A DNA stretch of 64,000 bases from Amycolatopsis sp. cg9 (lineage in GTDB: Bacteria; Actinomycetota; Actinomycetes; Mycobacteriales; Pseudonocardiaceae). Position 1 is the first letter of the stretch. Every line of letters begins with the position of its first letter. A program made the position numbers and the translations under genes. The notes under the pieces are model-generated. The model ran no database searches. It saw only the letters and a list, made by a program, of their open reading frames with translations, and was not told the DNA's origin. The stretch is taken from contig NZ_CP166850.1 in the NCBI RefSeq assembly GCF_041346945.1, forward strand, positions 5,998,501-6,062,500, read 5' to 3'. Below are positions 2 through 47,001 of the stretch, piece by piece.

Positions 2-3000
2 GGCTTCGACGCCGCGAGCGTCGACGTCGAGCGCGAGTTCCGCGGCCTCGGCTTCGACTCGCTCACCGCGGTCGAGTTCCGCAACCAGCTCGCCACCGCG
101 ACCGGCCTGCGGCTGCCGGCCACCCTCGTGTTCGACCACCCGACCCCGGTCGTGCTGGCCGGTTTCCTGCGCGGCGAACTCGCCGGCGAGGACGTCCCGG
201 TCGCCCGCACCACCGTCCGGGCGCCGGTGTCCGACGACCCGATCGCCATCGTGTCGATGGCCTGCCGCTACCCGGGCGGGGTCACCTCGCCCGAGCAGCT
301 GTGGCAGCTCGTCCTCGACGGCGGCGACGGCGTCGGGCCGTTCCCGGCCGACCGCGGCTGGGACCTGGCCGGGCTGTTCGGCGCCGACCGCGGCCGCTCC
401 TACGTCCGGGAAGGCGGGTTCCTCGGCGAAGCCGGGATGTTCGACCCCGGCCTGTTCGGGATCTCGCCGCGCGAGGCCCTCGCGATGGACCCCCAGCAGC
501 GGCTGCTGCTGGAGACCTCCTGGGAGGTCGTCGAACGCGCCGGCGTCGACCCGCTTTCGTTGCGCGGCAGCAAGACGGGCGTGTTCGCGGGCGTGATGTA
601 CCACGACTACGGCCAGGGCGTGCAGTTCCCGGAGGAGGCCCTCGGCTTCCTCGGCATCGGCACCGCGGGCAGCGTCATGTCCGGCCGCGTCGCCTACGCG
701 CTCGGGCTGGAAGGCCCGGCGGTCACGGTGGACACGGCGTGTTCGTCGTCGCTGGTCGCGATGCACTGGGCCGCGCAAGCACTGCGGGCCGGGGACTGCG
801 AACTGGCGATCGCCGGTGGCGTCACGGTGATGGCGACCCCGGGTGCCTTTGTCGATTTCTCGGCACAGGGCGGCCTGGCCGCCGACGGGCGGTGCAAGTC
901 GTTCTCCGATTCCGCCGACGGCGTCGGCTGGGCCGAAGGCGTCGGCGTGGTCCTGCTCGAACGGCTCTCCGACGCCCGCCGCAACGGCCACGAGGTCCTC
1001 GCCGTGGTGCGCGGGTCCGCGGTCAACCAGGACGGCGCGTCCAACGGCCTCACCGCGCCCAACGGGCCCTCGCAGCAGCGGGTGATCCGGCAGGCGCTGA
1101 CGGTCTCCGGCCTCACGACGTCCGATGTGGACGTCGTCGAAGGGCACGGCACCGGCACCCCGCTCGGGGACCCCATCGAGGCGCAGAGCCTCCTGGCCAC
1201 CTACGGCCGCGACCGCGAAACGCCGTTGCTGCTGGGCTCGGTGAAGGCCAACATCGGCCACACCCAGGCCGCCGCCGGGGTCGCGGGCGTGATCAAGATG
1301 GTGCAGGCGATGCGGCACGGCGTCGTCCCGAAGTCGCGCTACTCCGGCGAGCCGTCGTCCCACGTGGACTGGACCGAGGGCGCGGTCGACCTCGTGGCGG
1401 ACACCACGGCGTGGCCCGAAACCGGCCGCGTCCGCCGCTCGGCGGTGTCCTCGTTCGGGATCAGCGGCACCAACGCCCACGTCATCCTCGAACAGCCCGC
1501 ACCCCACCCCGAGCGTCACTTTCATAGGGAAAGTGACACGGAGGACCGGTCTCCGGATCACTTTCCCTATGAAAGTGCCGCCCTTGCCGGTCCGGTGCCG
1601 GTCGTGGTTTCCGGCCGGACGCCCGAAGCCCTGCGTGCCCAAGCCGCCCGCCTGGCCGACCACCTCGAGACCAACGAAATCCCGGTGGCCGACCTGGCCC
1701 ACGCGGCCGCGGTGACCCGGGCGGCGTTCACCCACCGGGCCGCGGTCGTCGGCAGCGAACTCAGCGAAGTCGTCGCCGGGCTGCGGGCCGTCGCCGCCGG
1801 GGACGCGGCCGTGCGCGGCGAGGCACGCGTCGCCCCGCCGGTCGCGTTCCTCTTCTCCGGCCAGGGCGCGCAGCGGGTCCACATGGGACGCGGCTTGTAC
1901 GCCGCGCACCCGGTGTTCGCGGCCGCGTTCGACGAGGTCCTGGCGCTGCTCGCCCCGGAGGTGCGCACCGCGCTCGACGACGAGGACCGGATCGACCGCA
2001 CGGAGTTCGCGCAGCCCGCGCTGTTCGCCTTCGAGGTCGCGCTGTTCCGGCTGCTGGAGTCGTGGGGCGTGCACCCCGACTTCGTGACCGGGCACTCGGT
2101 CGGCGAGATCGCCGCCGCCCACGTGGCCGGCGTGCTGTCCCTGCCGGACGCGTGCGCGCTGGTTTCCGCGCGGGCCCGGCTGATGGGCGCGCTGCCGGAA
2201 GGCGGCGTCATGGTCGCGGTGCGGGCGTCCGAAGAGGACGTTCTCCCGTTCGTCGGCGAAGGCGTCGACGTCGCCGCGGTGAACAGCCGCGGCTCGGTCG
2301 TCCTTTCCGGACACGAGGAGGCCGTCGTCGCGGTCGCGGCGAAGTTCGCCAAGCACCGGCGCCTGCGCGTCTCGCACGCCTTCCACTCCGTGCTGATGGA
2401 GCCGGTGCTCGCCGAGTTCGGCGACGTCGTCGCGAAACTGGAGTTCGCCGAGCCGCGGGTGCCGGTCGTGTCGGCGGGCGACGTGACCTCTCCGGCGTAC
2501 TGGGTCAGCCAGATCCGCGACACCGTCCGCTTCGGCGACGCGATCGAGCGGCTCACCGAGGCCGGCGTGGCGGTGTTCGCCGAGCTGGGCCCGGACGCCA
2601 CGCTCACCGCGGTCGTCGACGAACCGGCCGCGCACGTGATCCCGGTGCAGCGCAAGGACCGCGACGAAGCCGCCGCGGTCGCCGAGGCCCTCGCGCGGCT
2701 GCACGTCGCCGGGGTCGCCGTCGACTGGGCCGCCCGCTTCCCGCGGGCCCGGCGCGTCGCGCTGCCGACGTACGCCTTCCAGCACGAATGGTTCTGGCCG
2801 CTGCCGGCCGCCGGTGGCGACGCCACCGGCCTCGGCCTCACCCCGGCCGGGCACCCGCTGCTCGGCGCGACCCTCGCCCTCGCCGACTCGCCGGGCGTGG
2901 TCTTCTCGGGGCGGCTGTCCGCGGCCACCCAGCCGTGGCTGCGCGACCACGTCGTCGGCGGCACGATCCTGTTCCCCGGCGCGGCTTTCCTCGAACTGGC

Positions 3001-5485
3001 GGTCCGCGCGGCCGACGAGGCCGGCTGCGCGGCGGTCGAGGACCTGACCCTGGCCGTGCCGCTGGTCCTCGACCCGGACGGCGCCGTCGTGCTGCAGCTG
3101 GCCGTGGGGGAGCCGGGCGAAGGCGGCCGCCGCGAGCTGACGATCTCGTCGCGGGCCGACGACGACTGGACCCGGCACGCGACCGGCACCCTGGTCCCGC
3201 GCGCGGTGGCCGCCGAGCCGCTGCCCGACGCGTGGCCGCCGGCCGGTGCGGTCGAAGCGGATCTCACGGACTTCTACGCCTCCGCGGCCGAAGCCGGATT
3301 CGCCTACGGGCCCGCGTTCCAGGGCCTGCACCGCGTCTGGCGCGCCGGCGCCGAGGTCTACGCCGAGCTGGCCCTGCCCGACGGCACCGACGCCGGCCGG
3401 TTCGGGCTGCACCCGGCGTTGCTTGACGCGGCCCTGCAGGCCATCGGCTTCGGCGAAGGCGCCCCGGCCGGGCTGCCGTTCGCCTGGACCGGGGTGACGC
3501 TGCACGCGTCCGGCGCGAGCCGCGCCCGGGTCCGGATCACCCCGGCGGGCGGCGACTCGGTGACCCTGGCGCTGGCGGACGACGCCGGGAAGCCGGTCCT
3601 GACCGCCACCGGCGTCACCCTCCGCGCGGCCGAAGCCCCCGCCGAGGCCGACGCGCTGTTCGAGCTGCGGTGGACGCCGGTCCCGATCCCCGAGCCCGGC
3701 GACGAGACCTGGGCGGCCGTCGGGGACGAGCTCGCCACCGCCCTCGGCGTCGAGGCCCACCCGGACTTCGCGGCCGCGCTGGCGTCCGGCGCCGACGTGC
3801 TCGCCGTCCCGGTCACCGGCGGCCCGGATGCGGCGGCTTCGGCCCGCGCGCTCACCGCGGAAGTCCTGGAATACCTGCAAAGTCCCGCACCGCGGCTGGT
3901 GTTCGTCACCCGCGGTGCCGTCGCCGGGGCGGACGTCGCCGCGGCCGCGGTCTGGGGCCTGGTGCGCTCGGCGCAGTCCGAGGAACCCGGCCGCTTCGTC
4001 CTGCTGGACGCCGACGACCCCGACGGCGACACCCTCCGCGCGGCCCTGGCCACCGGCGAACCCCAGCTCCTCCTGCGCAACGCCACCCTGAGCGTCGCCC
4101 GCCTCACCCGAGCCGCACTTTCACGTGAAAGTGCGGACCTGGGCCCCGCACTTTCACGTGAAAGTGCGGGCTGGGATCCGGACGGGACGGTGCTCATCAC
4201 CGGCGGGACCGGGGGGCTGGGGCGGGTTTTCGCCCGGCATCTTGTCGCGAAGGGGGCGCGGAAGCTGCTGCTGCTCAGCCGTCGTGGCCCGGCGGCTGAG
4301 GGGGTCGACGAGCTGGTCGCGGAGCTGGCCGGGGCCGACGTCCGGGTGGTGGCCTGCGACGTCGGCGATCGGGACGCGCTCGCCGCCGTGCTCGCCGGCG
4401 TGCCCGACCTGACCGCCGTCGTGCACACCGCGGGCGTCGTCGACGACGGCGTGCTCGCGTCGCAGTCCCCGGAGCGGCTGGAGACGGTGTTCGCGCCGAA
4501 GCTCGACGCGGCCTGGCACCTGCACGAACTCGCCGGCGACGTCGCCGGGTTCGTGCTGTTTTCCTCCGTGGCCGGCACCATCGGCACGCCGGGGCAGGCC
4601 AACTACGCCGCGGCGAACGCGTTCCTCGACGCGCTCGCCGAACGCCGGCGCGGCGACGGGCTGGCCGGGCTGTCGCTCGCGTGGGGTGCCTGGGACACCG
4701 GCATGACCGGCGACCTGACCGACGCAGACCGCGAGCGGATGGTCCGCGGCGGGATGCCGCCGCTGAGCGCCGGGCAGGGCACCGAGCTGTTCGACCGCGC
4801 GGTGGCCGGCAACGCGGCGCACCTCGTCCCGGTGCGCGTCGACCTGCCGACGCTGCGCACCCGCGGCGAGCTGCCGTGGCTGCTCCGCCCGGTCGGCCGT
4901 CCCGGCCGCCGGAGCGCGGCCGCCGGACCGGACCGGGCCGCCGCGGCCGACCTGCGGGTGCAGCTGGCCGGGATGCGCGAGAGCGAACAGGAACGGACGC
5001 TGCTTTCCCTGGTGCGCCACCAGGTTTCCGCGGTGCTCGGGCACCCGGCCGAGCAGGTCGGGGCCGGGCTGGAGTTCCGCGAGCTGGGCTTCGACTCGCT
5101 GACCGCGGTCGAATTCCGCAACCGGCTCACCGCCGCGACCGGGCTGACCCTGTCGGCGACCCTCGTCTTCGACTACCCGACCCCGGCCGGGCTCGCCGCG
5201 CACCTGCGGGCGGAACTCGCCCCGGCCCCGGCCGCCGCGACTTCGCTGCCGGACGAGCTGGACCGGCTCGAAGAGCTGGTCGCCGCGGGCACGGCGGGCG
5301 AGTTCGCGGAGGCGGACGTCGCGGCCCGGCTGCGCCGGCTCCTGGCGAAGATCGCCGACGCGGAGCCCGCCGGCGAAGACGTCTCCGAGCGGCTCGACGC
5401 GGCCAGCACGGACGAGGTGTTCGCCTTCATCGACCACGAACTGGGCCGGCTCGGCGACGGGTCCGGACTCGAGCGGGAGGGCTGA
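2..5485 (+). CDS. Type I modular PKS, 3' part (ACP / KS-AT-DH-KR-ACP), 5' end outside window
   Basis: C-terminal part of a modular polyketide synthase. The frame is open at the left edge, so the true start lies upstream; 1,827 residues are visible. Residues 1-45 are the end of an acyl carrier protein with its GFDSL phosphopantetheine site, the last domain of the preceding module. One full module follows: KS about 78-498 (active Cys247 in DTACSSS, then HGTGT and NIGHTQ); AT about 610-900 ([13 protein letters not shown], malonyl-type HAFH at 792-795); DH about 945-1210 (His983 in HxxxGxxxxP, YGPAF, Asp1142); KR with GGTGGLG near 1401, VDD in place of the B-type LDD, and Ser/Tyr/Asn present; ACP with GFDSL near 1697. 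There is no room for an enoylreductase. Expected output: a malonate extension processed to an alkene. The tail is a helical C-terminal docking domain. The next PKS starts 7 bases after the stop, with GAGG overlapping the stop codon, so the pair is probably co-translated. Two palindromic elements interrupt its linkers (1515-1578 and 4113-4170). Confidence 0.95.
1515..1578. repeat. Paired, mutually inverted CACTTTC hairpins inside the KS-AT linker
   Basis: Two hairpins, CACTTTC-ATAGG-GAAAGTG (inside 1515-1537) and CACTTTC-CCTAT-GAAAGTG (1559-1577). The two 19-mers are exact reverse complements of each other, so the region can fold as two small hairpins or one long one. It is read in frame as part of the KS-AT linker (peptide pieces FHRES and FPYES), where the sibling PKS starting at 5493 has unrelated sequence. 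It belongs to the same family as the repeats at 4113, 21320, 35764 and 46872. Confidence 0.85.
4113..4170. repeat. Two perfect palindromes, 33-base pitch, in the DH-KR linker
   Basis: Perfect palindromes of 24 bp (4113-4136) and 26 bp (4145-4170) share the core GCACTTTCACGTGAAAGTGC. Their centres are 33 bases apart and the two cores are separated by 13 bases. Each core is translated as ALSRESA, and the 11-codon pitch keeps the PKS frame open. The element lies immediately before the KR Rossmann fold. Confidence 0.9.
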
Positions 5486-5492
5486 GGCCGCC

Positions 5493-14400: not shown

Positions 14401-14960
14401 TGGGCGACCTGGTCCCGAAGACCCGCCGCACGGCCCGCATCGACGCCGACGGCGTGCGGTCGTTCGTCCCGCGCCTGGGCGAGCTGGCCCCGGACGCGCA
14501 GGACCGCGAGCTGCTCGGCCTGGTCCGCGAACTGGCGGCGAGCGTCCTCGGCCACGGCTCCCCGGCGGCGATCGACCCGGACACGGGTTTCACCGAGATC
14601 GGCTTCGACTCGCTGACGGTGGTGGAGCTGCGCAACCGCCTGGGCTACGCGACCGGGCTGACGCTGCCGGCGACGGTGCTGTTCGACCACCCGAACCCGC
14701 GGGTGCTCAGCACGCACCTGCTTTCGCTGCTGAGCCCGGAGCCGGTGGACGCGTCGTCCCGGGTGCTGGACGAGTTCGCCCGCTTCGAAGCGCTGGCGGA
14801 GGACCCTTCGCTGACGCCTGAGACGGTCGGCTTCCTGACGACCCGGCTGCGGTCCCTGCTGGACCGCCTCGGCGGCGACAGCGAGTTCCTGGAGTCCCTG
14901 GACTCCGCGAGCGACGGCGAGCTGTTCCGCCTGATCGACTCGGAGCTCGGCAGCGACTGA
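5493..14960 (+). CDS. Type I modular PKS, two modules (KS-AT-KR0-ACP / KS-AT-DH-KR-ACP)
   Basis: 3,155 residues. The ATG at 5493 is chosen because a typical N-terminal coiled-coil docking domain ([12 protein letters not shown]) starts a few residues in and GAGG lies just upstream. Module 1: KS about 35-455 (Cys201); AT about 555-830 with GHSQGEIA and YASH at about 741, hence methylmalonyl-CoA; a KR-like region whose nucleotide loop reads GAEEGFG and whose catalytic Tyr is lost (about 1143-1260), so the beta-ketone should stay; ACP GFDSL near 1393. Module 2: KS about 1456-1865 (Cys near 1616); AT with HAFH near 2143, hence malonyl; DH about 2306-2560 with His near 2337 and Asp near 2498 but without the usual YGPxF; KR with GGTGGLG near 2731 and LDD near 2820 (B-type, active); ACP GFDSL near 3038. 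A C-terminal docking helix ([13 protein letters not shown]) ends the protein. Expected additions: an alpha-methyl ketone, then an alkene, or an alcohol if the DH is impaired. The gene faces the transporter operon convergently. Confidence 0.96.
8340..9290 (+). other. Degenerate ketoreductase region (KR0) in module 1 of the 5493-14960 PKS
   Basis: The structural half of a KR is intact in outline ([10 protein letters not shown] through [22 protein letters not shown]). In the catalytic half the GGTGxLG dinucleotide loop has become GAEEGFG, the core is shortened, there is no LDD, and the SS...Y...N catalytic set reads [19 protein letters not shown] with no Tyr in place. NADPH binding and catalysis should both be lost, although the fold may still brace the module. 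Confidence 0.85.
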
Positions 14961-15000
14961 CCCCGTTCGCCGGCGGCCGGGCGAGCGGGGGCGGGCACGA

Positions 15001-15033
15001 AAAACCGGGCCGGGGGAGAACCCCGGCCCGGTC
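15001..15033 (-). terminator. Intrinsic terminator of the glycosyltransferase-ABC operon
   Basis: A perfect 12-bp stem (15005-15016 with 15022-15033) and a 5-base loop, followed on the minus strand by a run of five T (15001-15005). It sits 14 bases beyond the permease stop. The stem could also stop plus-strand transcripts of the convergent PKS, although no T-run follows on that side. Confidence 0.8.
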
Positions 15034-15046
15034 GGGTCGTGCGAGA

Positions 15047-15814
15047 TCAGGCAGCGACCGCCTGGAACGTGCGCGAGTTCCACCGCACCGCCAGCGCGGT
15101 CAGCGCGATGATCACCACCGCGCCCACCAGCGTCGGCACCACCGGCAGCGTCTGCCGGAAGCTCGCCCGGCTGATGTCCACCACGTACGCCAGCGGGTTG
15201 AACCGCGACAGCACGTACAGCCACATCGGGGCGCGGTCCGGGGTGATCGGCAGCAGGATGCCCGACAGCAGCGTCAGCGGCAGGATCACGATGTTGACGA
15301 TCGACGAGAACGTGTCCTCGTTGCGCAGCTTCAGCACGATCGCGTTCGCGCAGCACGCGATCGTCAACGCCGTCAGCGCCGTGATCACCAGGACCAGGAC
15401 CACGCCGACCGCGCTCACCGCCACCCCGAACACCAGGCTCGCCAGCAGCAGGATGATCACGCCCTGCACCAGCGACAGCGTCACCGACGGCAGGGCCTGG
15501 CCGAGGCTCAGCGCCGTGCGGCTCACCGGGGTCACGCGCAGCCGGTCGACCGCGCCCGCCTTGATGCCCGACAGCAGGACGAAACCGCAGTAGACACCGT
15601 TGGTCGCCGCGATCTGGATGATCAGCGCCGGGGTCAGGTCCACCCAGGACGTCTGGGCCGCGACGCCCGGCGTCTTGCTGACCAGCACCGCCAGCAGCGG
15701 CCCGCACAGCACCAGGTACAGCACCGGCTGGATCATGCCCATCACCAGGTACGGCTTGTTGCGCAGCAGCACCGCCAGCTCGCTGCGGTAGACCAGGATC
15801 GCTTCACGCAGCAT
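15047..15814 (-). CDS. ABC-2 type transporter permease (DrrB-like)
   Basis: 255 residues, the membrane half of a drug-efflux ABC exporter. After a short cytosolic start (REAILVYRSELAVLLRNKPYL) there are about six hydrophobic segments, including PVLYLVLCGPLLAVLV, VTLSLVQGVIILLLASLVFG, a long VGVVLVLVITALTALTIACC stretch, IVNIVILPLTLLSGILLP and a final VGAVVIIALTALAV helix. The motif around LPLTLLSGILLPI and the following RFNPLAYVVD are typical of ABC2_membrane proteins that partner DrrA-like ATPases. The start codon overlaps the end of the ATPase gene by 11 bases, so the two are translationally coupled and probably assemble as a 2+2 complex. Likely role: export of the finished or glycosylated polyketide, giving self-resistance. 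The substrate is inferred from context only. Confidence 0.92.
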   Translation of the reverse strand: MLREAILVYRSELAVLLRNKPYLVMGMIQPVLYLVLCGPLLAVLVSKTPGVAAQTSWVDLTPALIIQIAATNGVYCGFVLLSGIKAGAVDRLRVTPVSRTALSLGQALPSVTLSLVQGVIILLLASLVFGVAVSAVGVVLVLVITALTALTIACCANAIVLKLRNEDTFSSIVNIVILPLTLLSGILLPITPDRAPMWLYVLSRFNPLAYVVDISRASFRQTLPVVPTLVGAVVIIALTALAVRWNSRTFQAVAA

Positions 15815-16775
15815 CGGTGACCTCCTCGGCCGGCTCGCGCGGGCCCCGGCCGGTCAGGGCGAAGAACACGTCGTCGAGGGTGGGGCGCCGGACGCGCAGC
15901 GCCACCAGCGGGATGTCCTGCTGGTCCAGCGCCCGCACCAGCGGCGACAGCACCTCGTCGCTCTGCGCGACCTGGAACCGCACCGTCGCGTCCTCGCGGC
16001 GCAGGCCGCGCACCCCGGGCAGCCCGGCCACCAGCAGTTCCGCGTGGTCCGCGCGTTCCGGCGGCACCGTCACCTCGACGCCGTCGCCGAGCAGGCGGGA
16101 CTTGAGCGCCTCCGGGGTGTCCTCGGCGACGATCACGCCGTCGTCGATCACCTGGATCCGGTCAGCCAGCGCGTCGGCTTCGTCGAGGTAGTGGGTCGAG
16201 AGGAACACCGTCACGCCCTGCTCGTCGCGCAGCCGCCGGATGTGGCTCCAGAGGTGGGCGCGGCTCTGCGGGTCGAGGCCGGTGGTCGGCTCGTCGAGGA
16301 ACAGCACCACCGGCAGGTGCACCATGCCCAGCGCCAGGTCGAGCCGCCGCCGCTGGCCGCCCGACATCGCCGACGTCAGCCGGTCCTCCAGGCCGGTGAG
16401 GCCCAGCTGACCCGAAATCTCGCGGACGCGCTCGGCGGCGTCGGTCTTGTTGAGCCCGTAAAGCCGGGCCTGCAGCATGAGTTCTTCGCGGACCTTGCGT
16501 TCGTCGACCGTGCCGCCGCCCTGGGCGACGTACCCGATGTGCCGCCGCACGCGCTTCTGCTCGGTGAGCAGGTCGGCGCCGGCGATCCGGGCCCGCCCGG
16601 CCGTCGGGCGCAGCAACGTCGTGAGCATCCGCATGGTCGTGGTCTTGCCGGCGCCGTTCGGGCCGAGGAACGCGACGATCTCCCCGGCCTCGACCCGCAG
16701 GTCGACGCCGCGGACCGCGGCGACTTCCCGGCCGTCGGCGGTGAAGGTGCGGGCCAGGCCCGCGGCCTCGATCAC
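15804..16775 (-). CDS. ABC transporter ATP-binding protein (DrrA-like)
   Basis: 323 residues. The frame stays open far upstream through the glycosyltransferase gene, but homology begins at a GTG on 16775 (VIEAAGLARTF), giving a 4-base GTGA overlap with the glycosyltransferase stop. Motifs: Walker A GPNGAGKT at about 38-46, Q-loop near 85 (YVAQGG), signature SGGQ at 138-141, Walker B VVLFLDEP at about 156-163, H-loop His195 (FLSTHYLDEAD). The C-terminal 80-90 residues (from VEVTVPPERADHAEL to RRPTLDDVFFALTGR) are the accessory domain typical of DrrA/CcmA drug exporters. It should energise the overlapping permease gene. Regulation is presumably shared with the glycosyltransferase from the promoter region upstream of 18169. 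Confidence 0.94.
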   Translation of the reverse strand: MIEAAGLARTFTADGREVAAVRGVDLRVEAGEIVAFLGPNGAGKTTTMRMLTTLLRPTAGRARIAGADLLTEQKRVRRHIGYVAQGGGTVDERKVREELMLQARLYGLNKTDAAERVREISGQLGLTGLEDRLTSAMSGGQRRRLDLALGMVHLPVVLFLDEPTTGLDPQSRAHLWSHIRRLRDEQGVTVFLSTHYLDEADALADRIQVIDDGVIVAEDTPEALKSRLLGDGVEVTVPPERADHAELLVAGLPGVRGLRREDATVRFQVAQSDEVLSPLVRALDQQDIPLVALRVRRPTLDDVFFALTGRGPREPAEEVTDAA

Positions 16776-18169
16776 CGGGCCGGCTCGGTCGCGGCCGGCG
16801 TCCCGGCGGCGAGCGCGAGCAGCGCGTCGGCGGCCCCCGCCCGGCCGCGGCCCGGCTCGTGCTGCAGCCGGGCCATTTCCCGCGCCCGCGTGGTGAACGA
16901 CGGGTTTTCCAGGACCTCGGTCAGCTTCGCGGTGACGTCGTCGGCGTCGATGCCGTGCGAGGAGTCGACCACCAGGCCGACGCCGGTGTCGCGCGCGCGG
17001 ACGGCCTGGTCGTAGCCGTCGACGAACAGCGGCCGCAGCAGCAGCGGCTTGCCGAAGTAGAGACTTTCGATGTAGCCGTTGCCGCCGCCGTGGGTGAAGT
17101 GGGCGCGCACGTGCGGGTGGGCGAGGACGTCCAGCTGCGAGGGCAGCCACTTCTCGGCCCGCAGGTTCGACGGCAGCTCGTCGGCCGGTGGCAGCAGGTG
17201 CCACGACTGGGCGGGCAGCCGCCAGAGCACGGCGTGCTTGCCTTCGAGCCGCCGCGCTACCTCGACCAGGCCCTTGATCTCGGCTTCGCTCATCCGCACG
17301 ACCGTGCCGAACCCGATGTACACCACCGATTCGTGCCGGTCGAGCCAGCCCTTGACGTCCTGCTCGTCGGGCAGTTCCGGCAGCGGCGGCACGATCGCGC
17401 CGAGCATCCGGAAGTGCGCCGGGATGTCGACCGGGTACTCCAGCTCGGCCAGCGAATAGACCAGCACGAGCGCGGCTTCGTCGATCCGGGAGGTGTACTT
17501 CGCGGCGAGCCGCGAGACGCCGAGCTCCTTGTTGGACTTCACGTACTCCACGACCCGCTTGCGCAGCAGGGAATCGGTGAAGTACAGCGCCTTGCGGCGG
17601 AACCCGAACCACGCGTTCGCCAAGCGCTGCCCGGCGGTCATTTCCAGCGGCAGCCCGGAGTGCGGGACGGGGAAGCCCGGCGGCAGCTTCGTCAGGTGGT
17701 TGCTCACCGAGAAGGGCACGCTCACGACGTGCGGGATCCGCTGCGTCACGGCCAGCTCGAACCCGGCGTGCAGCAGCGAGTCGATCACCATCGCGGCCGG
17801 CTCGACCTCGCGGACGACCTCGGTGAGCGCGCGGTAGGCCTGGTCGCGGAAGCGCGTGTCGAAGGTGTGCCGCATCAGCGCTTTGTGCGCTTTCCAGCGG
17901 GACTTCTGGGTGACCGCGTGGTAGGTCTCGTCGTCCCACTCCCCGGAGGACAGCTCGGGGATCGGTGCCCCGAGCGACCGGAACCCGACGCGGCTGCCGG
18001 TGCCGTCGGCGCCGATGGCTTCGACCTCGGCGCGGCGGTTGTCGAAGGTGGCGAAGTACAGGTCCGGGACCCCGCGCCGGGACAGTTCCGCCGCCAGCAC
18101 GAGCAGGGAGTTGACCAGCCCGCTGTCGGGTGAGCTGACGAACAGGATCGGACGCCGTTCTCGGCTCAT
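16772..18169 (-). CDS. GT1-family glycosyltransferase (macrolide/UGT-like)
   Basis: 465 residues from ATG at 18169, chosen over an in-frame upstream ATG (18220) because RPILFVSSPDSG starts the Rossmann fold right after it and a GGAAAGG ribosome site lies about 9 bases before it. The C-terminal half has the nucleotide-sugar signature of UGT-like GT1 enzymes: VYIGFGTVVRMSE, then WLPSQLDVLAHPHVRAHFTH and GGGNGYIESLYFGKPLL, ending in LFVDGYDQ. It should move a sugar from an NDP donor to the polyketide in the cytosol. Oddity: the N-terminal loop that in OleD/OleI-type enzymes contains the catalytic His (AHGHVNP) reads SPDSGLVNS at residues 13-21, with no His. The acceptor and sugar cannot be told, and no deoxysugar genes are in the window. 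It is first in an operon with the exporter genes, overlapping the ATPase start by 4 bases. Confidence 0.92.
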   Translation of the reverse strand: MSRERRPILFVSSPDSGLVNSLLVLAAELSRRGVPDLYFATFDNRRAEVEAIGADGTGSRVGFRSLGAPIPELSSGEWDDETYHAVTQKSRWKAHKALMRHTFDTRFRDQAYRALTEVVREVEPAAMVIDSLLHAGFELAVTQRIPHVVSVPFSVSNHLTKLPPGFPVPHSGLPLEMTAGQRLANAWFGFRRKALYFTDSLLRKRVVEYVKSNKELGVSRLAAKYTSRIDEAALVLVYSLAELEYPVDIPAHFRMLGAIVPPLPELPDEQDVKGWLDRHESVVYIGFGTVVRMSEAEIKGLVEVARRLEGKHAVLWRLPAQSWHLLPPADELPSNLRAEKWLPSQLDVLAHPHVRAHFTHGGGNGYIESLYFGKPLLLRPLFVDGYDQAVRARDTGVGLVVDSSHGIDADDVTAKLTEVLENPSFTTRAREMARLQHEPGRGRAGAADALLALAAGTPAATEPAR

Positions 18170-18379
18170 GGAGAAGCACCTTTCCTCGGCGGGAGCACAC
18201 GACCGCCGCGACCGTAACAACGCCTTTTCCGTGAATCACCTAAATTCCGCCGCGGCTCCGCCCGGCCCGGGGTGCGAAGACTAAGGGTTTGCGGGCACCG
18301 GACGCGGTTGACTCCAGCGATGCGGAACCCCGGACCCGCGGTGCCGCGAGTCCCGGCCGGACGACACCGAGAGGCGAGG
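18170..18379. promoter_or_regulatory. Divergent intergenic region between glycosyltransferase operon and PKS
   Basis: 210 bases without a gene, feeding both directions. The left part (about 18210-18250) is unusually AT-rich for this window (GTAACAAC, CCTTTTCC, CCTAAATT) and is the likely promoter zone of the minus-strand operon, although I cannot assign hexamers with confidence. The right part holds the conserved 39-bp block at 18277-18315 and a GAGG ribosome site at 18371-18374 for the ATG at 18380. Confidence 0.6.
18277..18315 (+). promoter_or_regulatory. Conserved upstream block, copy A (promoter/operator candidate)
   Basis: The pattern AAGWCT-N2-GGGTTT-N-CGGGC-N7-GCGGTTGACTCC occurs here and again at 47027-47065 with identical spacing, both times before a PKS gene that starts a new transcription unit. 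It contains TTGACT, which could be a -35 hexamer. The 16 bases CTAAGGGTTTGCGGGC match the published PAS-LuxR (PimM-type) operator consensus CTVGGGAWWTCCCBAG at 10 of 16 positions by my count. The block ends 64 bases before the start codon. Confidence 0.5.
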
Positions 18380-21300
18380 ATGGCCAGCGAGAGCCAGCTG
18401 CGTGACTACCTCAAGCGCGTCACCGCCGACCTGCACCGGTCGCGCCGGCGCGTGCGGGAGATGGAAGCCGCCGCCGCCGAGCCGGTGGCGGTCGTCGGGA
18501 TCGGGTGCCGGTTCCCCGGTGGGGTCGCGACGCCGGACCAGCTGTGGGACCTCCTCGACGGCGGCACCGACGCGATCGGGCCGCTGCCCGCCGACCGCGG
18601 GTGGTCCGCGCTGCTGGCCGGCGTCGACCGCAGCACGATCAGCCTTGGCGACGTCGACGCGTGGCGCGGCGGTTTCGTCGAGGGGGCGGACCGGTTCGAC
18701 GCCGGGTTCTTCCGCGTCTCCCCGCGCGAGGCGCTCGCCATGGACCCGCAGCAGCGGCTCCTGCTCGAAGTCACCTGGGAGGCGCTCGAACGCGCCCGGA
18801 TCGTGCCCGCGAGCCTGCGCGGCAGCCGCACCGGCGTGTTCGTCGGCACCAACGGCCAGAGCTACGGCAAGCTCCTGGCCGCGTCCGGGGAGACCGTCGA
18901 AGGCCACGCCGGCACCGGCACCACCGCGGCCGTGCTCTCCGGCCGCGTCGCCTACACCTTCGGCTTCGAGGGCCCGTCGGTCACCGTCGACACCGCGTGC
19001 TCGTCCTCGTTGGTCGCCGCGCACTGGGCGACGCAGGCGCTGCGCTCCGGCGAGTGCTCCCTCGCACTCGCCGGCGGCGTCACGGTCATGGCGACCCCCG
19101 AGGCGTTCGCCGAGTTCAGCAAGCAGGGCGGGCTCGCCCCGGACGGCCGCTGCAAGGCGTTCGCCGACGGCGCGGACGGCGTCGGCTGGGCCGAAGGCGC
19201 CGGGATCCTTGTCCTGGAAAGGCTTTCCGACGCCCAGCGCCACGGCCACCCCGTCCTCGCCGTCCTCCGCGGCACGGCCGTGAACTCCGACGGTGCCAGC
19301 AGCGGCCTGACCGTCCCCAACGGACCCTCGCAGCAACGCGTGATCCAGGCCGCGCTCGCCGCGTCCGGACTGTCCACTTCGGACGTCGACGTCGTCGAGG
19401 CGCACGGCACCGGCACCCGGCTCGGCGACCCGATCGAAGCGCAGGCCCTGCTGGCCACCTACGGCCGCGACCGCGAGCACGACCTGCTGATCGGCTCGGT
19501 CAAGTCGAACTTCGGGCACACCCAGGCCGCGGCCGGCGTCGCCGGGATCATCAAGGCCGTCCTGGCCATCCGCCACGGCGAGGTGCCGCGCACCCTGCAC
19601 GCCGACCGGCTCTCGTCCGAAGTGGACTGGAGGGCCGGGGCCGTCCGGCCGGTGACCGGAACGGAAGCGTGGCCGGAGACCGGCCGCCCGCGCCGCGCCG
19701 CCGTGTCGTCCTTCGGGGTCAGCGGCACCAACGCGCACACGATCGTCGAGCAGGCCCCCGAATCCGAGCCGGCCGATCGCGGCCCGCGCGCCGCCGGACC
19801 GGTGCCGTGGTTCGTCTCCGCCCGGTCGGAACCCGCGCTGCGCGCCCAGGCCGAAGCGCTGCTGGCCGCCACCGCCGACGACGCCGACCCGGCCGACATC
19901 GCCTTGTCGACCGCGACCACCCGCACGGCGTTCGAGCACCGCCTCGCGGTCGCCGGAACGGGCACCGCGGCCCTGCGCGAAGGCTTGCGTTCCTGGCTCG
20001 AGCAGGGTGCCGCCGCGACCGTGACCACCGGAACGGCGTCGCGCGGCGAGACCGCGTTCCTCTTCTCCGGCCAGGGCGCGCAGCGGAGCGGGATGGGCAC
20101 CGGGCTCGCCGAGGCCCACCCGGTGTTCGCCGAGACGCTCGCCGACCTCTCGGCACGCCTCGGCGTGGTCACGGACGACCGGCTCGACCGGACCGAGTAC
20201 GCGCAGCCCGCGCTGTTCGCCTACGAAGTCGCCCTGTACCGGCTGCTGGAGTCGTGGGGCGTGCGCCCGGCGTTCCTGGCCGGGCACTCGGTCGGCGAGA
20301 TCGCGGCCGCGCACGTCGCCGGGGTGCTCTCGCTCGACGACGCCTGCGCCCTCGTTTCGGCCCGCGCGAAGCTGATGGGTGCGCTGCCCGGGGGCGGCGC
20401 GATGATCTCGGTCCGGGCGTCCGAAGCGGACGTCGCCGCCGAGGGCGTCGACGTCGCCGCCGTGAACGGCCCGGAGTCGGTGGTGCTCTCCGGTCCCGAA
20501 GCCGCCGTCACCGCGGTCGCCGCGCGGTTCCCCGGGGCCCGGCGGCTCAAGGTGTCCCACGCGTTCCATTCGCGCCTGATGGACCCGATGCTCGACGACT
20601 TCCGTTCCGTGGTCACGAAGCTTTCCTTCGCCGAGCCGCAGATCCCGGTCGTTGCGGGTGGGGACGTCACCGACCCGGAGTACTGGGTGCGGCAGGTCCG
20701 CGACACCGTCCGCTTCGGCGACGCCGTCGACCGGCTCACCGGGGCCGGGGTGACGCGGTTCGCCGAACTGGGCCCGTCGGCCGTCCTTTCCGGACTCGTC
20801 GCGGGAGCGATCCCCCTCGCGCGGAAGGACCACGACGAAGCCACCGCGCTGATCGCCGGGCTGGCCGCGCTGCACGTCGCGGGCGGCACCGTCGACTGGG
20901 CGGCCGTGCACCCCGGTGCCCGCCCGGTCGACCTGCCCACCTACGCGTTCCAGCGCGAGCGCTACTGGCCCACGCTCACCCCGCGCACCGGCGACGCGGC
21001 CGGGCTCGGCCTCACCCCCGTCCGGCACGCGCTGCTCGGCGCCGCCCTCGACGTCGCCGCGAGCACCGAGACCGTGCTCACCGGCACCGTGTCCCCGGCC
21101 ACCCAGCCCTGGCTCGCCGGCCGGACCTCGTTCCCCGGCACGGGTTTCCTCGAACTGGCCCTGCGCGCGGCCCGCAACCTCGGCTGCCCGGAGCTCGCCG
21201 AGTTCACCCTCACCGCACCGCTCGCCCTGGCCCCGAAGGACGTCGTCGCACTCCAGGTCCGCGTGGGCCCACCCGACGCCGACGGCCGCCGCCCCATCGA

Positions 21301-24300
21301 CGTCCACTCCGCGAACGCCGCACTTTCACGTGAAAGTGCCGACCAGGGGTCCGCACTTTCACGTGAAAGTGCGGCCTTCGAGGCGGGCTGGACGCACCAC
21401 GCCGGGGGCACCCTGGCCGCGGTCGCCGGGCCGGAACCCGCCGTGCTGGCCGAAGGCGCGTACCTGACCGACGTCACGCTCGACGGGGACGCGGGCGCCT
21501 TCGACCTCCACCCCCTCCTGCTCGCCGAAGCAGTGCAAGCGTGCGGCGAGGAACCGGTGACCTGGCGCGGGGTTTCCCTGCACGCGCGGGGACTGACCCG
21601 GCTACGGCTGCGCGTCGCCCCGCTCGGCGGCACCACGGTGAGCCTCGCCCTGCTCGACTCCGCGGACCGGCCCGTGTTCGCCGCCGCCGAGGTCGAGTTC
21701 GGCGGCCCCGTCACCGAGGTCGAAGCCGCGCCGGCCACGCCGGTGCGGGTCCCGGCGAGCCCGGTGGCCGGCGACTGGGCGGCGCTCGGTGAGGCCGACC
21801 GCGTCCGTGCGGCCGAAGACCTCGTCCGCACCACCGTCGCCGCCGTGCTCGGCCACGGCGACACCGGCGCGGTCGGCACCGGCGACCCCTTCACCGACCT
21901 CGGCTTCGACTCGATGATGTCGGTCGAGCTGCGCAACCGGCTCACCGCCGCCACCGCGCTCGACCTGCCGGCCACGCTCGTGTTCGACCACCCGACCCCG
22001 GCCGCCGTCGCCCGGCTGCTGCTGGCCGGGCTCTTCGGCGGCGACGAGCGCACCGGCCCGGCCCGCCGGCCCCGGGCACGCACCGACGACCCGGTCGTGA
22101 TCGTCGGCATGAGCTGCCGGTACCCGGGCGGCGTCCGTTCGCCGGACGACCTCTGGACGATGGTCGCGAACGGCCACGACGCCGTCGGCCCGTTCCCGGC
22201 TGACCGCGGCTGGGACCTCGCGACGCTCGCCGCGGGCGCGTCCGCCACCACCTACGGCGGCTTCCTCGACGGCATCGACCGCTTCGACGCCGCGTTCTTC
22301 GGCATCTCCCCGCGCGAGGCCCTCGCGATGGACCCGCAGCAGCGCCAGGTCCTGGAAACGTCGTGGGAAGCCCTCGAGGACGCCGGGATCGACCCGCTCG
22401 GCCTGCGCGCCACCCCGACCGGCGTGTTCGTCGGCACCAACGGCCAGGACTACGCGAGCGTGCTGGCGGGCAGCGACGCCGACGTCGGGGCGCACGCCGG
22501 GCTCGGCAACGCCGCCAGCGCGGTGTCCGGGCGGGTGTCCTACGTGCTCGGTCTCGAAGGCCCGTCGCTGACCGTCGACACGGCGTGCTCCTCGTCGCTG
22601 GTCGCGCTGCACCTGGCGGCGCAAGCGCTGCGGGCGGGGGAGTGCGAGCTCGCGCTCGTCGGCGGCGTGCTCGTGATGTCGAGCCCGAACTACTTCCTCG
22701 GGACCAGCCAGCAGGGCGGCCTCGCGCCGGACGGGCGCTGCAAGGCGTTCGCCGAAGCCGCCGACGGCACCGGCTGGGCCGAGGGCGTCGGGATGCTCGT
22801 CGTGGAACGGCTTTCCGACGCCCGCCGCAACGGGCACGAGGTCCTGGCGGTGGTGCGCGGCTCCGCGGTCAACTCCGACGGCGCGTCCAACGGCATCACC
22901 GCGCCCAACGGCCCGTCGCAGCGCCGGGTGATCCGGGCCGCGCTGGCCGACGCCGGACTGTCCACTTCGGACGTCGACGTCGTGGAAGCGCACGGCACCG
23001 GCACCACCCTGGGTGACCCGATCGAAGCCCAGGCGCTGCTGGCGACGTACGGGCAGGACCGCGAAACGCCGTTGCTGCTGGGGTCGTTCAAGTCGAACAT
23101 CGGCCACACCCAGGCCGCCGCCGGCGTCGGCGGGGTGATCAAGGTCGTGCAGGCGATGCGGCACGGCCTGGTGCCGCCGACCTTGCACGTCGACGCGCCT
23201 TCGTCCCATGTGGACTGGACGGCCGGGTCGATCGGCCTGGTCACCGAAGCGACGCCGTGGCCGGAGGTGGACCGGCCGCGCCGGGCCGGGGTGTCCGCGT
23301 TCGGCGTCAGCGGGACCAACGCGCACGTCGTGCTCGAAGAGGCTCCCGAAGCGCCCGCCCCGGCGCCGGAACCGCCGGCCGCCGTGGTGCCGTGGGTGCT
23401 TTCGGCCCGCAGCCGGACCGCGCTGCACGCCCAGGCCGCTCGCCTGGCCGGCGCCCGGTCGCCGCTCGCCGCCACCGGGCTCGCCCTCGCCACCCGCCGG
23501 GCCGCGCTGGAGCACCGCGCGGTCGTCGTCGGGGCCGACGTCGAGGAGATGCGCTCGGCGCTGGCCGGGAACCTCCTCGAGGGCACTGTGCGCGACGGTG
23601 GCACGGCGCTGCTGTGCACCGGCCAGGGCTCGCAACGGCTCGGCATGGGCCGCGGGTTGTACGACCGGTTCCCCGAGTACCGCGAGGCCTTCGACGAGGT
23701 CTGCGCCGAGTTCGGCGCCGGGCTGGAGGACGTCGTCTTCGGCGACGACGCGGCGCTGCTCGACACCACCGGCTGGGCGCAGCCGGCGATCTTCGCGGTC
23801 GAGGTCGCGCTGCTGCGGCTGCTGGACGCCTGGGGGGTCCGGGCCGACCACCTGGCCGGGCACTCGATCGGCGAGATCGCCGCCGCCCACGCGGCCGGGG
23901 TGCTCTCGCTGACGGACGCGTGCGCGCTCGTCGCGGCGCGCGCCCGGCTGATGCAGGAACTGCCGGCGGGCGGGGCGATGTTCGCCCTGCGCGCGAGCGC
24001 CGCCGACGTCGAGCCGCTGCTCGGCCCGGATGTCGCGCTCGCCGCCGTCAACGGGCCGTCGTCGGTGGTGATCGCCGGGACCGAAGCCGCCACGCTCGCG
24101 GTGGCGGACCGGTTCGAGAGGGCGCGCCGGCTCACCGTCAGCCACGCGTTCCACTCGCCGCTGGTGGAGCCGATGCTGGAGGACTTCGCCAAGGTCGTCG
24201 CCGGGCTGGACCTGCGGCCGCCGCGCCGGTCGCTGCTCTCCGCGGTGACCGGCCGGCCGGAACACGAGCTGTTCGCCACCGCCGGGTACTGGGTGGACCA

Positions 24301-26719
24301 CGTGCGCCGGACCGTCCGCTTCGGCGAGGTCGTCGCGGACCTGGCCGGGCGCGGGGTCACGCGGTTCGTCGAGGTCGGCCCGGACGCCGTGCTGTGCGGG
24401 ATGGCCGCCGAGACCGTCGAAGCCACGTTCGTGCCGCTGCTGCGCGCGGGCCGCGACGAGGAGACCACGATCGTCACCGCGCTGGGCCGGCTGCACGTCG
24501 ACGGCCTCGAGATCGACTGGCACCGCTTCTTCGCCGGGGCCGACGCGCGCGGGGTCCGGCTGCCGACGTACCCGTTCGACGGCGAGCGGTTCTGGCCGGA
24601 GCCCGCGGCCGCGGTGCCCGTCGAGCCCGCGGACGGGTTCTGGGCCGCGATCGAGGGCACCGACGTCACCTCGCTGGCCGCGGAACTCGGCACCGACGCG
24701 GCCGAGCTGGCCCGGGTGCTGCCCGCGCTTTCCGCGCACCGCAAGGGACACGTCGACCGGACCACGACCGACGGCTGGCGGTACCGCGTCGACTGGCAGC
24801 CCTTCACGGGCACGGCCGCGCCACGCCGGGAGGACTGGCTGATCGCGGTCCCGGCGTCGCTCGACGGCGACGAACGCGTCGAGGTGCTGGTCGACGTGCT
24901 GGGCGCGGACACCGTCCGGCTGGTGGTGGACGGGCCGGACCGCGTGCCCCTCGCGGAGCGGATCACGGCGCTGCTGGAGACGTTCCCGAGCCCGGCGGGG
25001 GTGCTTTCGCTGCTCGCGCTCGACGAGACGCCCGCAGCGGAGGCGCCGTCGGTGCCCGCCGGCCTCGCGACCACGGCGGCCCTGGTGCAGGCCCTCGGCG
25101 ACGCGGGTGTCGACGCACCGCTGTGGTGCCTGACCACGGGCGGCGTGCGGACCGGCCCGGCCGACGCGGCGGGCAGTCTCGCGCAGGCCGCGGTGTGGGG
25201 CCTGGGCCGGGTGGCCGCGATGGAGTACCCCGGCCGCTGGGGCGGGCTCATCGACGTACCGCCGGACTTCGAACCCCGCGCACTGACCCGCCTGCCGGGA
25301 GCGCTCGCGGCGGCGGGGGAGGAGGACCAGCTCGCCCTGCGCGCGACCGGCGCGCTGGTGCGGCGGCTCGTGCCCGATCCTGCGGGACCACCCGCCGGGC
25401 ACGGGGGCGAGGTGCCCGCCGACGGCACGGTGCTCGTCACCGGTGGTACCGGCGCCCTCGGCGGCAAGCTCGCGCACTGGCTCGCCGACTCCGGTGCCGC
25501 CCACATCGTCCTCACCAGCCGCCGGGGGCTCGACGCGCCCGGGGCCTGCGAACTGGCCGACGAGCTCACCGCCACGGGCGCCCGCGTGACCGTCGCCGCT
25601 TGCGATGTCTCCGATCGGGACGGTCTGCGGCGGCTCATCGAGAGCCTGCCGCCCGAATTCCCCCTCCGCGGGGTCGTGCACGCGGCCGGTGTCCTCGACG
25701 ACTGCGTGGTCGACGCCGTCGACCCGGGCCGGTTCGAAACGGTCCTGCGGCCCAAGACCACCGCCGCCGTGAACCTGCACGAACTGACCGCCGACCTCGA
25801 TCTCGGCCTCTTCGTGCTCTTCGCCTCGATCGCGGGCACCGTCGGCGGGCCCGGGCAGGGCAGCTACGCCGCCGCGAACGCCGTGCTCGACGCGCTCGCC
25901 GAGCAGCGGGCCGCCGCCGGGTTGCCCGCGCTGTCGGTCGCGTGGGGGGCCTGGGGTGAGGTCGGCATGGCGGCCGACCCCGCCATCCAGGAACGCATGC
26001 GCCGCAGCGGGGCCGCCGCCCTCGCCCCGCGCCGGGCGCTGCTGGCCCTCACCGAAGCGCTGCGCCGCGGGGACACCTCGGTGACCGTCGCCGACATCGA
26101 CTGGACGCGGTACGCGCCCGGCATGGCGCTCATGCGGCCGACGCACCTGCTCGACGGCATCCCCAGCGCCCGCACCGCCATCGAAGCCGCGCGCGAAGCC
26201 CCGGAGACCGCCGAGGCGCCGCTGGCCGAGCAGCTGGCCGGGATGCCGGAACCCGAGCGCGTCAGCACGCTGTCGAAGGCGGTGCGGACGGCCGCCGCGA
26301 TGATCCTCGGGCACGCCTCGGGGGACGCGATCGAGCCCGAGGCGAAGTTCGGCCTGCTCGGCTTCGACTCGCTGAGCGCGGTCGAGTTCCGCAACCTCCT
26401 GGCCCGGCGCACCGGGCTGAACCTGCCGCAGGGCCTGGTCTTCGACCACCCGACGCCGCTCGCGCTCGCGCAGTACCTGCGTGCCGAGCTGGTGCCGGCC
26501 GACCGGCCCGCGGCCGATCCACTGGACGCCGAGCTGGCCGGCCTGGAACGGGCGGTGGCGGCCGGTGACCTCGACGAAACCCGCCGGGACGCGGTGTCCC
26601 GGCGGCTGCACCGCCTGCTCGACGGGCTGCGGCCCGACCGCGCGGCCGGCGAAGACGTCTTCGCGGCTTCGGACGACGAAATGTTCGACCTGCTCGGCAA
26701 GGAGTTCGGGATCTCGTGA
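18380..26719 (+). CDS. Type I modular PKS, two modules (KS-AT-DH0-ACP / KS-AT-KR-ACP)
   Basis: 2,779 residues from ATG 18380. An in-frame start further upstream is rejected because the docking domain ([14 protein letters not shown]) begins right after this ATG and GAGG sits 5 bases before it. Module 1: KS about 35-459 (Cys207); AT with HAFH near 727 (malonyl); a reduced DH-like region about 876-1107 lacking the catalytic His loop, YGPxF and Asp; no KR; ACP GFDSM near 1175. It should leave a beta-ketone. Module 2: KS about 1237-1654 (Cys near 1403); AT with HAFH near 1921 (malonyl); KR with GGTGALG near 2351, LDD near 2438 and intact Ser/Tyr/Asn (B-type, alcohol product); ACP GFDSL near 2659. 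The C-terminal docking helix reads [13 protein letters not shown]. The stop is followed after 23 bases by the ATG of the four-module PKS, so both are one transcript. A paired palindrome lies inside the dead DH (21320-21374). Confidence 0.96.
21005..21700 (+). other. Degenerate dehydratase (DH0) in a module without ketoreductase
   Basis: Recognisable DH remnant: [16 protein letters not shown] and [14 protein letters not shown] are retained. The HxxxGxxxxP loop has collapsed to AGRTSFPG without His, YGPxF is missing, and the catalytic Asp segment reads [10 protein letters not shown] instead of [10 protein letters not shown]. The ACP follows directly, so the reductive loop has otherwise been deleted. 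The region also carries the ALSRESA repeat insertion. Confidence 0.85.
21320..21374. repeat. Paired palindromes, 33-base pitch, inside a degenerate DH
   Basis: Palindromes at 21320-21339 (20 bp) and 21351-21374 (24 bp) share the core GCACTTTCACGTGAAAGTGC, with the same 13-base gap between cores as at 4113 and 35764. They are translated in frame as [18 protein letters not shown]. Unlike the other two copies, this one is inside a catalytic domain remnant rather than before a KR. Confidence 0.9.
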
Positions 26720-26742
26720 GCACGCAGGATGGGCGAGCGCTG

Positions 26743-46854
<20,112 letters not shown>

Positions 46855-46871
46855 CCCCTGGGCTCACGGAG

Positions 46872-46898
46872 GCGGCACTTTCCCTACGAAAGTGCCGC
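46872..46898 (+). terminator. Hairpin 17 bases after the PKS stop, possible terminator
   Basis: Perfect 11-bp arms (46872-46882 with 46888-46898) around a 5-base loop. The top of the stem, CACTTTC-CCTAC-GAAAGTG, is the same repeat family found inside the PKS linkers. Only a short TTTC follows, so termination is plausible but not canonical. Confidence 0.55.
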
Positions 46899-46916
46899 TT
46901 TCGACGTGCCCGGCAA

Positions 46917-47001
46917 GCGCCCCAATGTGGCGTTCGGTGCGTTGGACGCACCGAACGCCACATTGGGTGCGCTGGACGCAACCAATGCCACATTGGGGCG
47001 C
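46917..47001. repeat. Nested inverted repeats with a 22-bp perfect stem
   Basis: 46921-46942 pairs perfectly with 46946-46967 around a 3-base loop. In addition GCGCCCCAATGTGGC (46917-46931) is exactly complementary to 46987-47001, so two alternative folds compete for the same left arm. The words CCAATGTGGC and GGTGCGT recur in both orientations. It looks like a non-autonomous palindromic repeat cluster or an elaborate 3' end of the upstream transcript. Confidence 0.8.

Follow-up and report, generated by a model that had tools for sequence, protein, structure and literature searches.

The genome of Amycolatopsis sp. cg9 contains a dispersed family of short palindromes of the form CACTTTC-N3-7-GAAAGTG, nine copies of which lie in a 64,000-nucleotide stretch of polyketide synthase (PKS) genes (the window; G000:C1:5998501-6062500, where G000 is this genome, other G numbers are relatives, and L numbers are loci read). 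Palindromic repeats are generally regarded as mostly intergenic and, where the mover is known, as moved by a RAYT (REP-associated tyrosine transposase, after repetitive extragenic palindromic sequences, REPs). The family described here is real and broader than first reported: it has an unusual genic load, overwrites resident sequence, evolves in concert, and has spread by some means that does not involve a detectable RAYT. The chances seem about even that it is a clade-specific set of DNA/RNA hairpins similar to REPs and bacterial interspersed mosaic elements (BIMEs), in which hairpins at gene ends are spread and homogenised by overwriting, through a conversion-like process.

Distribution and anatomy of the hairpins

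The window holds exactly nine matches to the pattern (starts 1517, 1559, 4116, 4149, 21321, 21354, 35765, 35798, and 46876), and 100 dinucleotide shuffles of it hold none. All 18 CACTTTC words found on its two strands, where 2.25 are expected, are part of these hairpins. The nine form five loci, as the initial annotation had it, at the places given there. Loci 1 to 4 are each a pair within open PKS frames, and the three host open reading frames (ORFs) are stop-free across the pairs; locus 5 is intergenic, with its core 21 bases past the ORF ending at 46854. At loci 2, 3, and 4, 20-bp units with a 13-base spacer and a 33-base pitch encode ALSRESA twice, an architecture that had been described correctly, and the pair at locus 1 uses a different reading frame (HFHRESD...HFPYESA). 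The claim that the loci are always paired and frame-preserving stands for these four, but pairing as a rule, and PKS linkers as the site, hold for the window only; genome-wide, single copies are common and the hosts varied. Each pair in the window can also be folded as a single long hairpin (computed energies of -35.4 to -46.8 kcal/mol; -43.7 kcal/mol for locus 1).

Whether the core occurs elsewhere in the genome had been set as a check beforehand; it is abundant, with 147 copies in 10.64 Mb and none of a reversed control pattern. With nine copies per 64 kb, the window is nonetheless about 10 times as dense as the genome, and neighbouring parts of the same PKS cluster carry four further pairs (L194 twice, L195, and L196) at places matching a KR-linker query. 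Some genomes of the genus do carry repeats of this control pattern, GTGAAAG-N-CTTTCAC (22 copies in G034 and 10 in G007), perhaps as another hairpin family.

A loose form of the pattern has at least one match in 30 of 80 Amycolatopsis genomes, with a range of 0-311 copies; numbers can diverge sharply between close relatives, as in G019 (75) and G040 (0). A public scan with the 20-mer returned at least 120 stretches, and all 80 of those bearing a printed title are from Amycolatopsis. The 14-mer CTTTCACGTGAAAG was present in 3 of 249 genomes drawn from the family (135 times in the own genome, once in one congener, and once in another genus), a draw that took in 17 genomes of the genus, without the high-copy relatives. 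Within these searches, which covered the genus, the family draw, and the public scan, multi-copy genomes are found in Amycolatopsis only. The distant congeners G028 (311 copies) and G037 (175), counted with the loose pattern, have the same stem with a CCGG centre in most listed copies; at 16 loci read in these two genomes (L280-L295), one unit lies within a called gene and the remainder are intergenic. Searched against plasmids, the first 10 kb of the window gave PKS-like matches only, among the matches listed (20 of 90 records). No paper was found that contains the 18-mer as a string, and titles and abstract openings named no such Amycolatopsis repeat, within a partial literature coverage that includes few subscription journals.

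Units lie at more than 100 places, most of them close to a stop codon. The position of copies relative to genes was counted in 33 own-genome clusters, picked by position from the first 2.7 Mb, with gene calls from our own codon-model caller. Twenty are intergenic (14 convergent and 6 co-directional), 2 overlap the 3' end of a gene, and 11 lie within genes; none is in a divergent spacer, yet of the 94 kb of intergenic DNA read with these loci, such spacers account for 33 kb. Extended to 140 clusters, with orthologues left in, the count is 43 convergent, 37 co-directional, and 5 divergent clusters, 42 in genes, 4 overlapping a 3' end, and 9 at locus edges. The proposal that megasynthase linkers are a special home for the element is therefore not upheld, since 22 of the 33 clusters are outside genes or at gene ends and the genic hosts are diverse. 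Ten own-genome hosts were identified by Pfam: PKS, SoxG, LPG_synthase_TM, an AMP-ligase, an ABC ATPase, two NIT-HAMP-HATPase proteins, a BTAD regulator, a permease (BPD_transp_1), and a protein with a weak MTES_1575 match. Of the 95 distinct genic units, which sit in frames that remain open, 81 are read as LSRES; the CAC-TTT frame accounts for 13 and the third frame for 1. Because all three frames are in use, selection at the peptide level is unlikely despite the dominance of ALSRES, which probably arises because one frame of the ACGT form contains TGA.

Each unit consists of CTTTC-loop-GAAAG with a largely complementary outer stem; the centre is ACGT in 56 of 70 own-genome units and five bases long in the other 14 (e.g., CCTAT and ATAGG). 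Of 118 spacings between adjacent units, duplicates included, 82 have a pitch of 33 and 16 a pitch of 39. A common spacer, ACC[TA]GGG on one strand, is present in 15 of 28 own-genome pairs, 8 of them outside the PKS cluster, and a BLAST search with a shared-spacer locus gave short matches across pair and spacer at many other sites, many of them 90-100% identical; this shared spacer supports copying between loci. Where pairs lie in genes (68 distinct contexts, orthologues and paralogues included), the common spacer runs along the coding strand in 41 and against it in 0, and 27 have other spacers. Both loops are self-complementary and four bases long in 114 of 130 adjacent-unit pairs; 10 pairs are mixed. 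The remaining 6 have two asymmetric loops, each complementary to its partner (5 exactly, 1 with one mismatch; GTACT/AGTAC is among them). A pair is thus usually, not always, one long inverted repeat.

States at orthologous sites

The PKS cluster was compared with those of seven relatives (G017, G025, G042, G048, G051, G062, and G067) in a search for empty sites, and several of the same linkers are without the element. Locus 1 is present only in the own genome; all seven orthologous clusters lack it and have a shorter linker. At locus 2, G017, G025, and G042 have the pair, G048 has one CGC-type unit, and G051, G062, and G067 have no family unit; the piece is 227 long both in the single-unit G048 and in the three unit-less genomes. 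At the same coding position G051 (L182) has a different hairpin, GGTTTC-CCCG-GAAACC, which matches the element at 14 of 20 bases. The locus 3 pair is found in G017, G042, G048, and G051 (the last with variant stems) and is absent from G025, G062, and G067. At locus 4, G017 and G042 have a pair, G051 and G062 a single unit, G025 and G048 three units, and G067 a variant with the CCTAT loop. The intergenic stem of locus 5 is retained with changed loops in G017 (CCCAC), G025 (ACGT), and G048 (GTAGG, the inverse of the own CCTAC), is altered in G042 and G051, and is missing from G062 and G067. An ordinary conserved PKS linker was rejected as an explanation, given the absence of locus 1 from all seven orthologous clusters and the polymorphism of loci 2 and 3.

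Four further sites were each compared in 30 genomes. The ABC ATPase carries the palindrome in 14 genomes, exact in 13 and with one altered base in 1; another 15 have SLPAESA of identical length, and 1 outgroup differs. The AMP-ligase gene has a pair in 14 genomes (a few with single changes), a single unit in 1, and a shorter native linker in 13, besides 2 outgroups. For SoxG, classes sorted by eye comprise 12 genomes with a perfect ACGT core, 3 near-perfect, 7 graded or CCGG-type, 6 with a different native linker, and 2 outgroups; compared with the native linker of those six, the single-unit form is unchanged in length or lacks 3 bp. In seven genomes a second, upstream SoxG unit has replaced native codons; the native sequence beside it, GCCGAGCTGGAAGC, is similar to the family spacer. 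The hairpins at L205, a junction of convergent genes, were again sorted by eye and belong to this family in 10 genomes, with a degenerate relative in 1, a CCGGGAG hairpin in 10, a GTGA..TCAC hairpin in 7, and others in 2.

States with and without the element occur among related species at every site compared in depth. The initial annotation had the element inserted into its hosts; several orthologous sites do lack it, but several genic copies replace resident sequence instead. At the ABC ATPase and SoxG sites the native targets match the element at 10-13 of 20 bases, a level reached by 0.02-1.7% of coding 20-mers. The convergent junction read as loci L326-L355 has, in one and the same intergenic position, hairpins of unrelated families depending on the species, which suggests that bidirectional terminators in this genus are exchangeable cassettes.

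Conservation, candidate mechanism, and alternatives

The core is conserved as nucleotide sequence. Among 62 orthologous coding units (self rows dropped, no more than 2 core mismatches, flanks 70% identical or better), 4 of 248 third codon positions within the 14-bp core are changed, compared with 975 of 6072 (16%) in flank 14-mers under the same mismatch filter; the rows are related to one another and the counts carry no probability. In a window of 75% G+C, drift should have altered the codons of the core, since CTT, TCA, CGT, and GAA all have A or T in third position. Outer stem positions retain Watson-Crick pairing (-1 in 57, -2 in 58, and -4 in 59 of the 62), with more than one pair type at each. 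The stem also differs between close relatives, as placed by a midpoint-rooted tree of the flanks of two genes (28 genomes, 2731 columns): the GC-type stem GCTTTCACGTGAAAGC is found once in G000 but 49 times in its sister G017 and 42 times in its sister G025; G042 has it twice, and its sister G048 33 times. CAC-type counts (any loop of 3-7) are 147, 87, 67, 150, and 73 for G000, G017, G025, G042, and G048. Stem type is a property of each genome, that is, the copies evolve in concert, through conversion or a changing binding factor.

Length-neutral replacement, swaps between hairpin families, complementary loops within pairs, and genome-wide stem types all fit an overwriting process. Judged by their position and predicted fold, the gene-end copies may serve as bidirectional terminators or mRNA 3'-end hairpins that act as interchangeable cassettes. 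Overwriting, not RAYT transposition, would both spread and homogenise them, by template switching inside a hairpin together with ectopic conversion between copies that have a unit or a spacer-like stretch in common; the genic copies would be by-products tolerated in linkers, mostly in the ALSRES frame. Template switching is described as homogenising hairpin arms and inverting spacers (PMC8604942). A wider and more tentative proposal, to which we give clearly less credence, is that an unrecognised hairpin-writing process operates in the genus, copying cassettes over resident hairpins and quasi-palindromes, swapping terminator families, recoding linkers, and keeping copies alike, without a known REP-type transposase.

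Several observations weigh against overwriting of terminator-like hairpins. The element brings a net length gain of about 50-60 bp at PKS locus 3 and of 27 bp at the AMP-ligase, and the intergenic copies, predicted here to be terminators, have no obvious U-tract. No mobilising agent was identified, the search having covered the RAYT/Y1 family (PF01797). Conservation of the core and symmetric stem changes would be expected of a palindromic protein-binding site, too; the outer pair at -3 is weaker (complementary in 49 of 62), and the 10 mixed pairs among the 130, with one symmetric and one other loop, are not perfectly paired unit to unit. The graded SoxG states may represent either the building up of the palindrome or its decay. 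Likeness of the native target to the element is ordinary at the AMP-ligase (8 of 20, a level reached by 13% of coding 20-mers) and at PKS locus 2 of G062 (4 of 20, 86%), so founding guided by homology is not general.

The copies might instead be duplex binding sites of a clade-specific protein, perhaps ParB/Noc-like, selected in place, with lineage differences reflecting a specificity switch (ACGT versus CCGG centre) or loss of the protein. A sequence-specific factor would account for the conservation of synonymous positions within genes, and the lineage cores TTTCACGTGAAA and TTTCCCGGGAAA are identical to the centres of parS and of the Noc-binding site (NBS): CTTTCACGTGAAAG in this clade and CTTTCCCGGGAAAG in most listed G028 and G037 copies contain the 12-bp cores of parS (TGTTTCACGTGAAACA) and NBS (TATTTCCCGGGAAATA) (PMC7383237). 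Relic-like SoxG states, moreover, are mostly in low-copy genomes (G077, G040, G055, G029, and G057), though also in G062, which has 40 copies. The full 16-bp consensus of either site is nonetheless not matched, as the seventh base from the centre is C/G, and the 5-base centre of 14 of the 70 own-genome units would break a symmetric dimer site. G000 has a single ParB_N (PF02195) protein, the number of such proteins does not track copy number, and a canonical parS core, GTTTCACGTGAAAC, adjoins parB (at G000:C1:2575661, 2 kb away). A ParB/Noc paralogue, to the extent that it would carry PF02195, is not supported, and binding sites leave the shared spacers and the swaps with unrelated hairpins unexplained; we consider this account unlikely. 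A non-autonomous insertion element of an unrecognised transposase, like a miniature inverted-repeat transposable element or a Rickettsia palindromic element (RPE), whose clean insertions have had their borders blurred by divergence, is rather unlikely as well. It would explain the dispersal of the shared spacer as a unit, presence and absence between orthologues, and sharp copy-number differences between sisters (e.g., 115 in G075 versus 8 in G057), but neither the unchanged length of the ABC ATPase site (14 versus 15 genomes), nor the SoxG unit that equals the native linker of six genomes or falls 3 bp short of it, nor the exchange of one hairpin for another. No target duplication was seen by eye in the alignments, in which no dedicated search was made and the linkers are too diverged for a sharp border.

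Classical REP/BIME elements mobilised by a RAYT (Y1 HUH) transposase, the type of mobiliser that the initial annotation proposed looking for (RAYT/IS200), are very improbable, even though paired palindromes, a 3'-end location, and inverted pairing are BIME-like. PF01797 is present in 0 of 80 genomes of the genus (E 0.001), while the control was positive in 5 of 14; replacement at the same length in the ABC ATPase also argues against transposition, and no GTAG/CGTC tag was noticed by eye in the contexts inspected, of which no count was made. Least probable of all is that mutation bias and selection alone produced the family, the hairpins being born in place from quasi-palindromes by template switching with no copying between loci. 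Graded SoxG states, element-like native targets at the ABC ATPase and SoxG sites, complementary loops within pairs, and the loop inversion at locus 5 are all compatible with this, but the recurrence of one 14-bp core and one spacer at unrelated loci, together with stem types that hold across a genome, calls for inter-locus transfer or a common selective agent.

Genomic surroundings and known systems

The positions of the hairpins and their host ORFs are given in the table. An Rfam scan of the window at the gathering threshold gave nine matches, all to ASpks and none over the hairpins, and a known Rfam RNA at the hairpins was rejected on this ground. The nine ASpks matches (a mycobacterial antisense small RNA) lie over PKS ORFs on the minus strand (e.g., 32812-32886) and probably represent conserved PKS coding sequence, not nine small RNAs. 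Right behind locus 5, at about 46920-47000, is a second type of long palindrome, CCCCAATGTGGCGTTCGGTGCG...CGCACCGAACGCCACATTGGG, partly doubled; it is found in the orthologue of G025 and not in the pieces of G017, G042, and G051, and G048 has a different palindrome. Between the PKS genes, the minus strand of 15047-18169 encodes an ABC-2 transporter, a DrrA-like ATPase, and a UDP-glycosyltransferase/EryCIII-like protein, which suggests that the polyketide is glycosylated and exported.

Table. Hairpin loci and host ORFs in the window
Feature	Position	Strand	Details
Locus 1, hairpin pair	1517..1577		Loops ATAGG and CCTAT, mutually complementary; pitch 42; spacer 1536-1558
Locus 1, host position	KS-AT linker of PKS ORF 2-5485, in frame		KAsynt_C_assoc 451-583 (Pfam)
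Locus 2, pair of GCACTTTCACGTGAAAGTGC	4115..4167		Units 4115-4134 and 4148-4167; spacer 4135-4147; between SpnB_Rossmann and KR
Locus 3, pair	21320..21372		Units 21320-21339 and 21353-21372; spacer 21340-21352; directly 3' of PKS_DH_N, ORF 18272-26719
Locus 4, pair	35764..35816		Units 35764-35783 and 35797-35816; spacer 35784-35796; between SpnB_Rossmann and KR, ORF 26716-46854
Locus 5, intergenic terminator-like hairpin	46867..46903		Core CACTTTCCCTACGAAAGTG (46876-46894); predicted -27.5 kcal/mol
Host PKS ORF, KS-AT-DH-KR-ACP, open at window start	2..5485	+	Carries loci 1 and 2
Host PKS ORF, two KS domains	18272..26719	+	Carries locus 3; start uncertain, 18272 or 18380
Host PKS ORF, several modules	26716..46854	+	Carries locus 4; start uncertain, 26716 or 26743

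The family occurs in a genus without detected RAYTs and lies in frame inside catalytic and multi-domain proteins, where its nucleotide core outlasts synonymous drift. With related species in both states, the spread of REP-like repeats and the exchangeability of terminators become directly testable. Pairs also lie where KR begins or ends its neighbourhood with the adjoining domain in several modules; more speculatively, they could favour module recombination or mark it, which would be relevant to PKS engineering.

The likeness to REP/BIME pairs and to the in-frame palindromes of Rickettsia, drawn in the initial annotation, is borne out by the 147 dispersed copies, the in-frame genic units, and the orthologous sites without the element. 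REPs are short palindromes in opposite-orientation pairs, mostly located after genes between co-directional or convergent ORFs, with some in genes, and the CGTC REPs are likewise without a known dedicated transposase (PMC3733652). The Amycolatopsis palindromes resemble them in being short, often paired, dispersed, and mainly extragenic downstream of genes; they differ in that no tag was noticed, no RAYT was found in the genus, a third of the sampled own-genome clusters are genic and in frame, resident sequence is overwritten, and stem types are homogenised per genome. Rickettsia elements are also palindromic repeats in frame within unrelated protein genes (PMC10969869), but they are about 150 bp long versus the 20-bp units and 53-bp pairs described here; the Amycolatopsis family is further set apart by its conserved core, by intergenic copies that look like terminators, and by replacement without change of length. 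The coding palindromes of Nematomorpha mitochondria (PMC6649704) are similarly kept in coding sequence alongside protein function, but reach 284 bp in mitochondrial genes, whereas in Amycolatopsis one short sequence is dispersed genome-wide. The parS/NBS sites of ParB/Noc (PMC7383237) agree exactly, in their 12-bp cores, with the two lineage forms; the Amycolatopsis palindromes depart from them at the seventh base from the centre, and in having 5-base centres, more than 100 copies, and no additional ParB_N protein. Template switching in hairpins (PMC8604942 and PMC8794818) shares with this family the homogenised arms, the inverted spacer, and the maintained pairing, but acts within one inverted repeat and leaves unexplained the presence of one sequence at many loci.

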